Shown here: positions 29,301 to 35,300 of the stretch, in pieces | Layout of the letters: every line of letters begins with the position of its first letter | How positions within the stretch are numbered: position 1 is the stretch's first letter | Source: Antedon bifida | Taxonomy: Eukaryota; Echinodermata; Crinoidea; Comatulida; Antedonidae | Assembly: GCA_963402885.1 (NCBI GenBank) | Contig: OY727096.1 | Location: 29,307,820 to 29,371,819, forward strand | Direction: 5' to 3' | DNA length: 64,000 nucleotides | Translations under genes and position numbers: made by a program | The notes under the pieces: model-generated | What the model saw: only the letters and a program-made list of their open reading frames with translations | The model's database searches: none | What the model was told of the DNA's origin: nothing

Positions 29301-32300
29301 TTCGACAATCAAATGTTAAAAAACATAAAAGACATAAAAACAAAAATAAATAATGAACAATTATAGGTGACATGGTTTTTATTCAGTCAGCAGCAGCTTC
29401 TGTTTCACAAATGAAACTTTGTTTCTTTCTTTCCTTCTTTCTTTCTGACAATCGCGAAAAGGTTTCAGATGCGACATTTTACAAAGTTGTATTGAAAATA
29501 GTATCTCTAGTTACTTTTATATTTTTCCTGAATTCACAACTCCCCTATATTTTTCCCCTATTACATTTATTATCAATTATATTATGTGAAACGCTATGCT
29601 TTTTCTTTTGAAGAGTGTTCATGATACAATATTGGTATTTAAGTAATAATTAAACAGTATCATTATCAACATTAATTTTTTAATCCTACTTTTATTTTGT
29701 TTTATTGATTCAGATTTTCTAAGGGTTTCCTCTTTAAATGTTCTTTTAAATGTAAATCATCTAATGAATCCAATTTAAATATTGGGTAAAATAGAAATTT
29801 ATCAACTTTCGAGTATTTCAATTGTTCCGATATTTCTCATTTTTTAAGACAGATTATATTTTAGTTTTAAATTCTTTTGAATGAACAACACCAATGAAGT
29901 AAAGAATGATAAAACCCAGAATTATTATAAATATATATAAAGAAATTAATTAATTTTCAGTATATCACCAGGCGCTTTAGAATTTATTCTGTGCTTTTCT
30001 TTTAACTGAAATATCATAGAGGGCTTTAACCTATACAGTAGTGTGCTATCAACCATAAATATCATAGCAAAGTATTTATTGGAGTCTGAATCAGGTACTT
30101 GGCCATTGTAATGTGAGGATCAAAGCAAATGATTCACGTAAAGAGAACTGTTTTACACCATGAAGAGTCTAGTGAAAGACATTTTTCAGAGAGCCACTAT
30201 AGGCATGATGAATACAAACAACCAACAAGTCCAACAACAAAGTGTAAAGTATAAAGTAAGTACAGTAAAACTTTCTAATTGGCCCAATTTATTTATTTTT
30301 TGGCCCATGCCCTAATTTGGCTTTATTATATGTTTAATCCCAACTACAAGGTATATAAGCCTTACTTTGCTGTACTTCATTCAGTATTTGTAGTAGATTA
30401 ATTATGACATTTATTAACACTTTGATCTAATTTACGATCAATCTTTTTTTAGATATTATTACTGAAAATTATTTATTGGTCTGTAAAAAATGTTCAATGC
30501 AATCTAGTAAAAAAATGTTTTATTTGTTCCACTGTCTGTATAATATCACTTCTTTTAAATTATTAGAAAAAACTTAACGCTTTTATATTTATGTTCTTTA
30601 CATTCTTTATGTAACTATTGTGATACTTCAACTTTCAATATATAGGAAAAATATAGAAATTCTTCAGTTTTATAATCAAGTCCAAAACACAATTTCAGAA
30701 ATATGAGCATGAATACAGTATTTTTTTACTTACAACTACAAGAACGGAACATACACATAAAATAAGAACAGACTATTTGAAAGCAAATACTAAAGAATAG
30801 TCAGAATGTTATTTTTATAGTTTTATGTTAATAATATAGTATTTTATACTTTCAGTTTGAAAAGGTATTTTATTGTTAAAATACACAAAACTTTGGTCAG
30901 TTAGAGTTTATTTTTATTTATTTTGTGTGAATCAAAATATTTTTATTTATTTTTATTCTTTTTGAATTTGTTTTTTCTTTAGTGTAAGACTTATGTTTGT
31001 ATTTCTTACTACATTCTATCATTTTTACATTTATTTTGATTTATTTTTAAGTTAATAATTTTATTTATTCTTGTATACTGTATTTCACACAACATTTATT
31101 TTGTTTCATTTTAAGTTATTACTTGGACGCACATTTATCACCACTGTTGTAAAAGTGAAGTTTCCAATAAATTACTATTATATGTTATAACACAGAACTA
31201 CAGTATTGAAAGAAAATTGTTAGTCTAGAAAAAAATGATGAAATAAGTAAAGTAAAATAACAGCAGTAGAAAGGAAAGTAATATGGTATCTGTGGATACT
31301 CTCCCATCCTGTTTTCTTTTATAGTTCATTAGGTGTATTATTACTTTTTTTAGTTGAATAACTTTAATAAATGAAGTTAGAAGAATGCGTATATGCATCA
31401 TTTATGTATGAAAACAGAACCTGTAAAAGAATATGACAATCGTGATTGAAATTGTTTATCATGCTCGGTGGGTGATAGTTTAAAAATAGTATTAAAAATA
31501 GTACAGTAACTACATGTCAAATAGGTAAGATTTCTGGCATAGAACAGGGTGGTTTTTTTATTGTTTTTTTTTTCAAAGACCCAGGGCTGCTGGGCCCCTT
31601 TATGCATACTCATATTTAATATTCATATCCAGACAACTACCCTCTGGGCAATTACCACCTGGGAAACTATCCCCTAGGACAATTACCCTCCATGGACAAC
31701 TACCTCCCAGACAACTACCCCCTAGGACAACTACCCCTAGGACAACTACCCCTAGGACAACTACCCCTAGAACAACTACAGTACACCTCAGGACAACTAG
31801 CTCTCAGACAACTACCTCCTAGGACAACTACCCCGTAGGACAACTACCCCCTAAGACAACTACCCCCTATTAAGACAACTACCCCCTATTAAGACAACTA
31901 CCCCCTAGGACAACTGCCCCCTAAGACAACTACCCCTCAGGACAACTACCTCCAGGAAAACTACCCCCTAGGAGAACTACCCATAGTACAACTACTTTTT
32001 CTACTTGAATATTCTATAATAACATCTTTTATTACGCTCATAACAGTAACACATTTGACAATTGTGAATGATTGTTTATCGTACCTGTTGTGTGTAAGTT
32101 AAACCATGTCGCGTATAAATAATTTCAATTATAGAGGGCGCGTAGTTTAGGATATACGCTGTATTAAACAGGTCAAAGGTCAAATGTCCCCATGTTTTTG
32201 CGGAACGGAAAATTTACTCACGAACGAAACAATTCGTTTTAAATCGCTTGGTATCTATACAAATATGGACCGATCAGGTTAGATGAATTGTAACTTAAAA

Positions 32301-35300
32301 TAATATTAAATTCTATATACTAAATTATACCATCCATTCGGAAGAATAGACAATTACCACGGTGTTCTGGTTTCTTTTTCTAGGCCTACTATTTTAATGT
32401 TACATTTGAGCAAATAACTACCAGTTGAATCATTCTGGTACATTCGTCCTAATGGAAGGAAAAGTAACTAGCTAGTCCCAATTAGTAGTGAACTAGTGTG
32501 CATCTTTCCAGCTTACATACAATTTATTATGAATGTTTACACATTATTTTGATCTTTATACCAACACTTCACCCAATTTAGAATTTTCTGGACTTATCAC
32601 TGATTCATGTTCCCACATATAGCATACTCTCCCCTCGCCTATTCTTCAAAGGAAGGTTAGACTAGAAATGTTTTTTTAGATTCTTACATCATTGATGTCT
32701 TTTACGAATGTCTTTTGTGTTATCTTGTCATCAGGTGAAGCAACCCACTTACCAAATGAAACACGACAACATTCTGTAAGTTACTTGTTTTGTGTAAAAA
32801 TAAACCCTACATAAGCTTTCCCCGACGGTCCCCCGCTGGCGCCACCACTGTTTTAAAGTATTATTTTTACAAAAGGTCAACAATTTAATTGTCTTTAATA
32901 GATAGGTACTTATCACTTTGACTTGGCTTATGAATATGTATGCATTTAATACATTTAAATTAATATAAGCACTGTGTAGGCTACTGTATCTAGCTCAAAA
33001 ATATGGTGAACTGGAACAAAATTGTAGGCAAAGATTTTTCCAGCTGGTTATCTGAACCAAAATTTACAGGAAAAAATGATAATTTTGGACAAAAATCACT
33101 CAAGCGTGACTTAAATTGTGTTTTCACCTGTTATACATGGTATTGATCACTGAAATGTGTTCATTGGGTATGAAAACATAGGGTTTGCCACAAAAATTGT
33201 AATAAATGAATTATTAGTTTAAGAGATATCGTGAAAATATGGGTTTTATAGCTAATTTGCATATTTATGCTTATTTGCATATGAAGGTGGTGGATGACGA
33301 GGGTTGATTTGTTGTATGTGATCAGGACAACATATACATTCATTTAAAACTGAAAAACCTTTGCCTACAATTTTGTCTTGCTCATATGCTAGATAGTAGC
33401 CTATGTGATGGCTTCTGTGATTAACATTTGTAAATCTCCACACACAGGCGAATCGTGGTGATCAACCAAATGAACATAGGGTTGCGTCTTGGTGGATAAG
33501 GTAAACATGCTTTTTTATACTATGGTCCATTTTCATGTGCACGATGATTGCAGTTTTCATATGTGAAGAATAAAAATATAATAATGGGAAAGAGACTCTC
33601 TTGATACTTTGCAGCTTCAAGCTAAGCTAATACAAAAAACAACAAACAAAATCTATAATACTGGATTCACCAGCTACCATTATTGTAGGTAGTTTCAAAT
33701 TATTAATTTTCTTTCTTTTCAGGTTCTTGGTAAACATGATGCTTTACATCGTTGCTAGAGGGATATCACATATGGCAATAAACTTTTTTCTTCCATCCCC
33801 AACAACTAAAACAGAAATATTTGCTCATCTGCTTCAAGGGTGTATATCAAATCTCTTGAAGAAAGGTGTTTACAGTTTTCAGCGAAGATATGGATGGGTA
33901 GGGCAAATTTCTTCAAAGTTTAAATTGATACTCAATCTAAATGTGAGAACAATTCTATTAAAAATTAGGCCTACATTGGAAATATTGAATGAGGATACAT
34001 GATTCTTCATACTGTATAACAAAGGCGAGCTCGAGATATATCTTACATTTTTAACTTTTTAGAATCTGGAGAGTTATCTAGCGATTGCAACTGGACTTCA
34101 TTCAATTAAAAATTGAAGATGTTTATAGTCAAGCCATAGATAATTACTAAAGGAAATGGGGCATGCAACAGCATAATAGATCAAAGATACATTGTCTGTC
34201 TCCATATAGTACAACTCTTAAAATGTAGTTGGATACACTTTGTGGAAAAAAAATATTATATCTTTATATTTTTTGCACAGGTGATAATTGATCAGCCAAA
34301 TGAAGATGGAATTGTGCTTGGCTGTTTAAGGTAAACTTTTTTTTAAAATCACATATCTTATATATTTACATTGAAGTATACAAATAATAATAGAGTGGGA
34401 TTGCACAAATAATTTCATGAGTTGAAAGATGAAAATATAACAAATTTTTATCTTTCACTGAATGAAATTAATTGTACCAATTATTTGTACCATTGTACAA
34501 ATAAAAAACATTCATTATTTGTTTGAGTAAACAACAGCCTATCCTCTTGCTCAATCACTGTGTACCAAAAGTGAACACACAAAATGAAATTGTAGTACTC
34601 TTGAGAGTAGTGCTATATGATATAGTACATTTATTTAATATCATGTGACCCACAGTCATCCAATCAACACTACATTCACCATGGGTACAGTTGTTTCAAG
34701 GTAATAATCTTCTTTGTGTTTGTTTTCAGGATGTTGCTCAATACGGTGCTATTCATATTTTCCAACCCGATGACCAACATGCTTATGAACATAGTTTTTA
34801 CCCCAGCCCAACAAGGCCAGGCTTCAATAATGATGCTCCGCAAGATGCTACAAGCATTGATTTACAAACTAATACAAAAACTGTTCATATTGCTCTATAA
34901 AGCTCTTTCACAATTTAGAAGATGGTGCACAGGTAGGACAAATTTAAATGGATATTAATATCTTAGGCCTGGTAATTACAAGGCATTAGGTTAGGTGTAC
35001 ACAGAGTTAACATGCCTCCTCCTAAGGCAAAATAGTGCCTCTATATAGATGACGCATACTTGACATCCTTTTTAAGATGTACTGTAGATACTAGTCTTCC
35101 CTGCTATAATTTAAGTCTATTATAAAAGTTTATTTCTATCATACTTCTTGTAATTTCAGAATTTGCATCACAAGATGAAACTGGATTGGTGGTTTAAAAA
35201 GACTAAGAAACATTTGATTAATGCTGTCACGGTGTTTCAAATCAAGTAAAAAGATATCAAGATGAAAGATAGATCTTTTAGAACAAAAACAATAGCCGGT

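Follow-up and report, generated by a model that had tools for sequence, protein, structure and literature searches.

A 64,000-nucleotide stretch of the genome of the crinoid Antedon bifida (GenBank assembly GCA_963402885.1, contig OY727096.1, positions 29,307,820 to 29,371,819 of the forward strand; hereafter the window, with positions counted from its first letter) carries a transporter gene on its minus strand and, inside one intron of that gene, a set of short plus-strand exons that probably belong to a nested gene. An earlier note on this DNA had described these exons as a complete gene lying antisense within an ABCB transporter. The host gene and the nested exons are listed here; units 1 and 2 are the two copies of a duplicated exon pair described below.

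20397..45644, minus strand, host gene: a full ABCB-type exporter with transmembrane domain (TMD) 1, nucleotide-binding domain (NBD) 1, linker, TMD2 and NBD2; outer limits approximate, N-terminal exons read by eye
28684..36314, minus strand, host intron: 7,631 bases, phase 1 (G/AA), between the exon that ends NBD1 and the linker exon
32265..32277, plus strand, exon 1 (proposed): ATG and 10 coding nucleotides, with A at -3 and G at +4; the least certain part
32735..32775, plus strand, exon 2: has PNExR and the 10-mer ACCAAATGAA in common with exon 3
33448..33500, plus strand, exon 3: the short, polar member of unit 1
33723..33897, plus strand, exon 4: unit 1, coding for a hydrophobic and an amphipathic helix
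34281..34330, plus strand, exon 5: the short, polar member of unit 2
34730..34932, plus strand, exon 6: unit 2, coding for a hydrophobic and an amphipathic helix
35160..35197, plus strand, exon 7: acidic C-terminus and stop codon TAA

The host was recognised from minus-strand frames with the Walker, signature and H-loop peptides of an NBD (read by eye), together with domain matches. Five of the 52 genome matches listed for PF00664 fall in the window, all on the minus strand (four at 40.3–42.1 kb and one at 25.2 kb), and ABC_tran matches were obtained at 37.6–38.0 kb (E 0.0014, below cut-off) and at 23.0–23.2 and 21.1–21.3 kb (both above cut-off). The order TMD1-NBD1-TMD2-NBD2 is found on this one strand; assignment to ABCB rather than to another subfamily of full exporters was judged by eye. 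The last base of the NBD1-ending exon is 36315 (GAAG/gtaagc) and the first base of the linker exon is 28683 (ttacag/AAGAG); small host exons within the intron thus bounded were not specially sought. The nested coding sequence (32265–35197, plus) lies wholly within host intron 28684–36314 (minus), and the antisense nesting reported earlier is borne out by the host frames, the domain matches and the intron borders alike.

When joined, the seven exons give 573 nucleotides, corresponding to 190 codons and a stop. GT and AG border all six introns, and the exon start phases (0, 1, 0, 2, 0, 2, 1) are mutually consistent, so that the 190-codon frame, its borders and its six phase joins are all present in the sequence as first described. 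In AT-rich DNA such agreement of borders and phases says little by itself, and the argument that the earlier note had built on it for a gene beyond chance expectation is weak. The claim itself does hold for the core of the gene, where it is carried by splice rank and by an in-frame duplication. This core, exons 3–7, is well supported.

The duplication, which the earlier note did not mention, makes exons 3 and 4 on the one hand and exons 5 and 6 on the other two copies of a single two-exon unit. The protein alignment of unit 1 with unit 2 scored 77, compared to a maximum of 42 among 1000 shuffles. Short exons 3 and 5 have DQPNE and the donor region in common (73% over 56 bases), and in long exons 4 and 6 the hydrophobic residues follow a common pattern, with both exons ending near F(Q)RR. 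Exons 4 and 6 can be paired on the same strand in 18 frame combinations, of which the predicted one scored 47 and the runner-up 31. Over the 61 codons of the unit alignment, 20 residues are identical, and the first, second and third codon positions differ 29, 16 and 33 times, respectively (second versus third, Fisher p = 0.003). The ratio of nonsynonymous to synonymous rates (dN/dS) between the units was 0.46 (NG86), 0.43 (LWL85) or 0.34 (YN00), with dS above 1, and 10 of 2000 simulations with an equal number of random changes retained equal protein similarity; these dN/dS and simulation values are somewhat flattering, as the use of protein to guide the alignment biases it towards similarity at the protein level. 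The in-frame duplication and its coding-type substitution pattern form the stronger part of the case for a gene. Exon 2 may represent one more copy of the short exon; a match as good arose in 114 of 5000 shuffles of the protein and in 6 of 5000 of the DNA. A six-frame scan of 26000–46000 for further copies (open stretches of at least 12 residues, score at least 38) gave just the two units; two extra matches in it, scoring 42 and 39, were taken as chance.

Splice signals carry another part of the case. Open segments of 140–260 bp that run from an acceptor scoring 3 or more to a donor scoring 1 or more were collected from the two strands of the window and ranked by summed splice score. On this ranking, the length range of which was picked with exons 4 and 6 in view, exon 6 is first in the window (13.4) and exon 4 second (11.3), with the ABCB exon 37909–37706 in fourth place. 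Across 200 shuffles of the whole window, the best segment equalled or exceeded exon 6 in three and exon 4 in ten, and the second-best equalled or exceeded exon 4 in two. On the same scale, the splice sites of the ABCB gene, as placed by us, ranged from 1.5 to 7.8 for acceptors (14 sites) and from 0.3 to 8.7 for donors (10 sites). The ranking replaced an earlier count of strong exons (two in the window, with none of 2000 region shuffles containing any), the thresholds of which had been set after the exons were seen.

To this were added searches of the 315.6-Mb genome. The whole protein and each unit matched at their own locus alone up to E = 10 (5, 2 and 2 matches, respectively), in searches that worked exon by exon and that a much diverged copy could escape; the nested gene is most likely single-copy. 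The 3.1-kb locus, by contrast, gave at least 72 matches elsewhere, a lower bound as 40 of 650 candidates were scored. All 72 of the matches listed fall in query positions 757–1232, which correspond to window positions 32956–33431 in intron 2, and none in exons. A transposon origin of the exons was therefore rejected. This repeat and the signals flanking the coding sequence are as follows.

32170..32182, plus strand: perfect direct repeat AGGTCAAAGGTCA, 82 bases 5' of the proposed ATG
32695..32734, plus strand: alternative start, an in-frame ATG reading directly into exon 2, without A/G at -3 and without G at +4
32956..33431, no strand assigned: dispersed repeat resembling a miniature inverted-repeat transposable element, in intron 2, non-coding, with inverted-repeat parts at 33016–33040 and 33352–33376; listed matches 70–94% identical
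35468..35473, plus strand: candidate polyadenylation signal AATAAA, starting 271 bases past the stop

At the 5' end, the donor of exon 1 ranks at the 97.8th percentile of plus-strand GT sites and the acceptor of exon 2 at the 99th percentile. A start at 32695 in place of exon 1 yields a short hydrophobic N-terminus. Upstream of both, the AGGTCAAAGGTCA pattern, with up to one mismatch allowed, has one match in 64 kb (with no mismatches) against 0.04 expected. We take this repeat to be a DR1-type site, of the kind bound by nuclear receptors; as a candidate regulatory site it is suggestive only. The host intron also contains a minisatellite at 31632–31995, 270 bases 5' of exon 1, with ~22 copies of a 15–16 bp unit (GACAACTACCCCCTAG).

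Searches of Pfam, NCBIfam, PHROGs and PDB sequences gave no significant match to the predicted product, in agreement with the lack of recognisable relatives first noted. Neither the 190-residue product nor its units matched any Pfam family, and the product had no match in PHROGs. An NCBIfam match to PstA was at chance level (E 0.034; 13.3 bits against a cut-off of 193.45), and matches to PDB sequences were likewise taken as chance (best E 1.5 for the product and 0.4 for a unit profile). In a search for viral relatives, two stretches fitted a pattern and none was confirmed. Within the searched libraries, the protein is an orphan. The hydrophobic or amphipathic helices of the earlier description were found again as one hydrophobic and one amphipathic cationic segment per unit. 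Mean hydropathy over 19 residues is 1.47 for helix A1 and 1.90 for helix A2, and the amphipathic moments of helices B1 and B2 are 0.51 and 0.58. Lysine and arginine number 4, 1, 4, 0 and 2 in the N-terminus, turn 1, middle, turn 2 and C-terminus, respectively. Because the turns are nearly without charge, the chain may form two hairpins with its ends in the cytosol.

Taken together, these data suggest how the gene may be built. What is observed is the exon geometry, the duplication, the coding-type divergence and the location, with no second copy found. We propose that tandem duplication of a two-exon unit gave rise to the body of the nested gene, with each unit pairing a short polar exon (DQPNE) with a long one downstream that encodes, in order, a hydrophobic helix, a brief low-charge turn and a cationic amphipathic helix. 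In the product of ~190 residues, the N-terminus, middle linker and C-terminus would be cytosolic and the two short turns would lie on the opposite side of the membrane, and the protein is most likely small and membrane-inserted or tightly membrane-bound, with two helical hairpins. The gene would be expressed, from a promoter of its own and independently of the host. That this is a real protein-coding gene on the plus strand, nested in an ABCB-type intron, with its own promoter and a two-hairpin product of membrane type, is in our judgement a good deal more probable than the readings opposed to it, and we hold it with fair though not full confidence.

Several results weigh against that conclusion. 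They come in large part from a small gene finder, which used generic splice weights, with codon weights derived from the ABCB and G-protein-coupled receptor (GPCR) exons of the window (1,355 codons). The best model for the region, retaining exons 4–7 with a start at 33408, scored 9.3; that 8 of 1000 dinucleotide shuffles reached this score counts in favour of a gene, but the exact seven-exon model first described scored 5.2. The gene-finder score is low compared to the ABCB tiles (up to 68.3), and a plus-strand tile at 45517–45672, antisense to the presumed N-terminal exon of the host and not gene-like, reached 9.5. Among the other comparison tiles, which were those scoring over 4, the GPCR gave 11.3, the PLAT and lipoxygenase stretches 14.1 and 17.5, the tile after them 10.4, and a minus-strand tile with a weak P-loop match 18.4. 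Measured against the ABCB and GPCR exons, the codon scores of exons 4 and 6 are negative (-2.8 and -8.3 bits, respectively), and codon statistics therefore do not carry the coding case. The protein guidance of the unit alignment belongs with these points, as does the 5' end. Exon 1 has just 13 coding nucleotides, is weakly supported and is unused by the best gene-finder model, so that both it and the start codon are uncertain, and the description of the gene as complete was not upheld. At the 3' end, AATAAA or ATTAAA occurs once in the 703 bases after the stop; as such hexamers average 2.4 per 703 bases in the window, the signal at 35468 does not exceed chance expectation and is uninformative. 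In the product, the hydrophobic segments are borderline for membrane insertion (approximate energies of 2.1 and 3.9), and peripheral binding by the amphipathic helices is therefore possible. Aspartate and glutamate number 5, 1, 3, 0 and 3 across the same five parts of the chain, which leaves the topology weakly supported.

Alternatively, exons 3–7 could belong to a differently bounded plus-strand transcript, with other first exons (at 32695, at 33408 or further upstream) and another, possibly secreted, N-terminus. This reading is compatible with the core of the one we favour and is a serious possibility, to which we give somewhat less than even chances. The best gene-finder model, with its start at 33408 and exons 4–7, fits it, as does the short hydrophobic N-terminus that a start at 32695 would provide; against it are the A at -3 and the G at +4 that flank the exon 1 ATG, and the acceptor of exon 2, which ranks at the 99th percentile and would play no part with a start at 32695. 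A decaying or dead gene, in which the duplicated exon pairs once coded and are now unexpressed or without a proper 5' end, would explain the codon usage unlike that of the host and the weak exon 1, and it would sit well with the repeat element of intron 2, which ends near exon 3, and with genome searches that found no intact relative. Four duplicated exons without a stop or frame shift, and splice sites that are intact and strong around exons 4–6, nevertheless make decay unlikely. We are slightly more doubtful still that the open frames arose by chance in this AT-rich intron, or that the exons make up a spliced antisense RNA that does not code. The low gene-finder score and poor codon usage are as such an origin would have them, and shuffles do on occasion reach the score of the region (8 of 1000) or match the two splice-score ranks (3 of 200 and 2 of 200), but the two strong exons are in addition homologous to each other in frame, and the substitutions between them are of a coding type.

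Co-regulation with the host, raised in the earlier note, found no support in this analysis. It is improbable, in our view, that the nested gene works as a partner of the ABCB host or regulates it in antisense, whether through shared regulation, through transcriptional interference or as a small exporter subunit. Its position and orientation are consistent with such a role, as is the perfect DR1-type repeat 82 bases 5' of the ATG. Against this, one study did not find expression of human ABCB1 to be linked with that of RUNDC3B in the cell lines studied (PMC3441908), and the introduction of another reports no significant expression correlation among 109 human and 752 fly host–nested pairs (PMC3786989). 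A more far-reaching version, in which a crinoid-specific family of membrane-active proteins with a doubled hairpin was born in the ABCB intron and locked to it by joint use under nuclear-receptor control through the DR1-type site, would be a long shot to the same degree.

Observations were also made on the neighbouring genes and on the mitochondrial genome of the assembly. On the plus strand, a PLAT domain at 6933–7361 (E 4.9e-22) and a lipoxygenase domain at 15195–15548 (E 1.1e-8) are probably parts of one lipoxygenase gene adjoining the ABCB gene. A single-exon rhodopsin-type GPCR lies at 57156–58106 (plus; 7tm_1, E 4.6e-27), and an open frame of 629 codons encoding numerous C2H2 zinc fingers at 1630–3519 (plus). 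Two immunoglobulin (Ig)-like stretches on the minus strand, 55394–55708 and 62376–62834, have the peptide SWIKDGTEITRGE in common and are likely to be tandem duplicates; the latter matches I-set at E 1.1e-5, and the former has no family match at 0.01. The mitochondrial genome comprises 15,844 bases, with 46.8% T and 11.4% C on the cox1 strand. Its nad4L (Pfam E 7.7e-15) is flanked by nad4 and nad5, and nad1 and nad2 are on the opposite strand; in most other echinoderms nad4L follows cox1. Published crinoid mitogenomes of 15,792 and 15,878 bases have 44.9 and 47.8% T, and their high-T, low-C bias has been called crinoid-specific (PMC7748595, PMC7687491). The gene order and T-rich coding strand seen here indicate a crinoid, likely a feather star.

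Nesting on the opposite strand is a known kind of arrangement and, since antisense intronic genes are common, is unsurprising in itself. The human gene RUNDC3B, which encodes a RUN-domain protein, offers a comparison within the ABCB family; the present product matched no Pfam family. As in Antedon, exons of RUNDC3B lie on the complementary strand inside an intron of human ABCB1, but by the description in excerpts of the study they fall between ABCB1 exons -1 and 1, and several of its exons alone are nested (PMC3441908). According to the introduction of another study, intron-nested genes, often on the opposite strand, account for ~6% of genes in the fly, 2.1% in the worm and 0.5% in humans (PMC3786989). 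The same study describes Drosophila 2mit in intron 11 of timeless2, likewise a protein-coding gene that lies inside an intron and is oriented opposite to its host, and one for which no functional link to timeless2 was found there; unlike the present gene, it is described with 2 exons, a product of 1141 residues and orthologues in other insects (PMC3786989). In having no library match, no second copy found and strongly diverged internal copies, the Antedon gene also resembles orphan genes with internal exon duplication. Its exons are too short, and their codon usage is too unlike that of neighbouring genes, for simple scans of open reading frames or codons, and the internal duplication of an exon pair is coding evidence obtainable from a single genome. 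If orthologues were to be found in other crinoids, the locus would be an instance in which the nesting of a gene within a conserved transporter could be dated.

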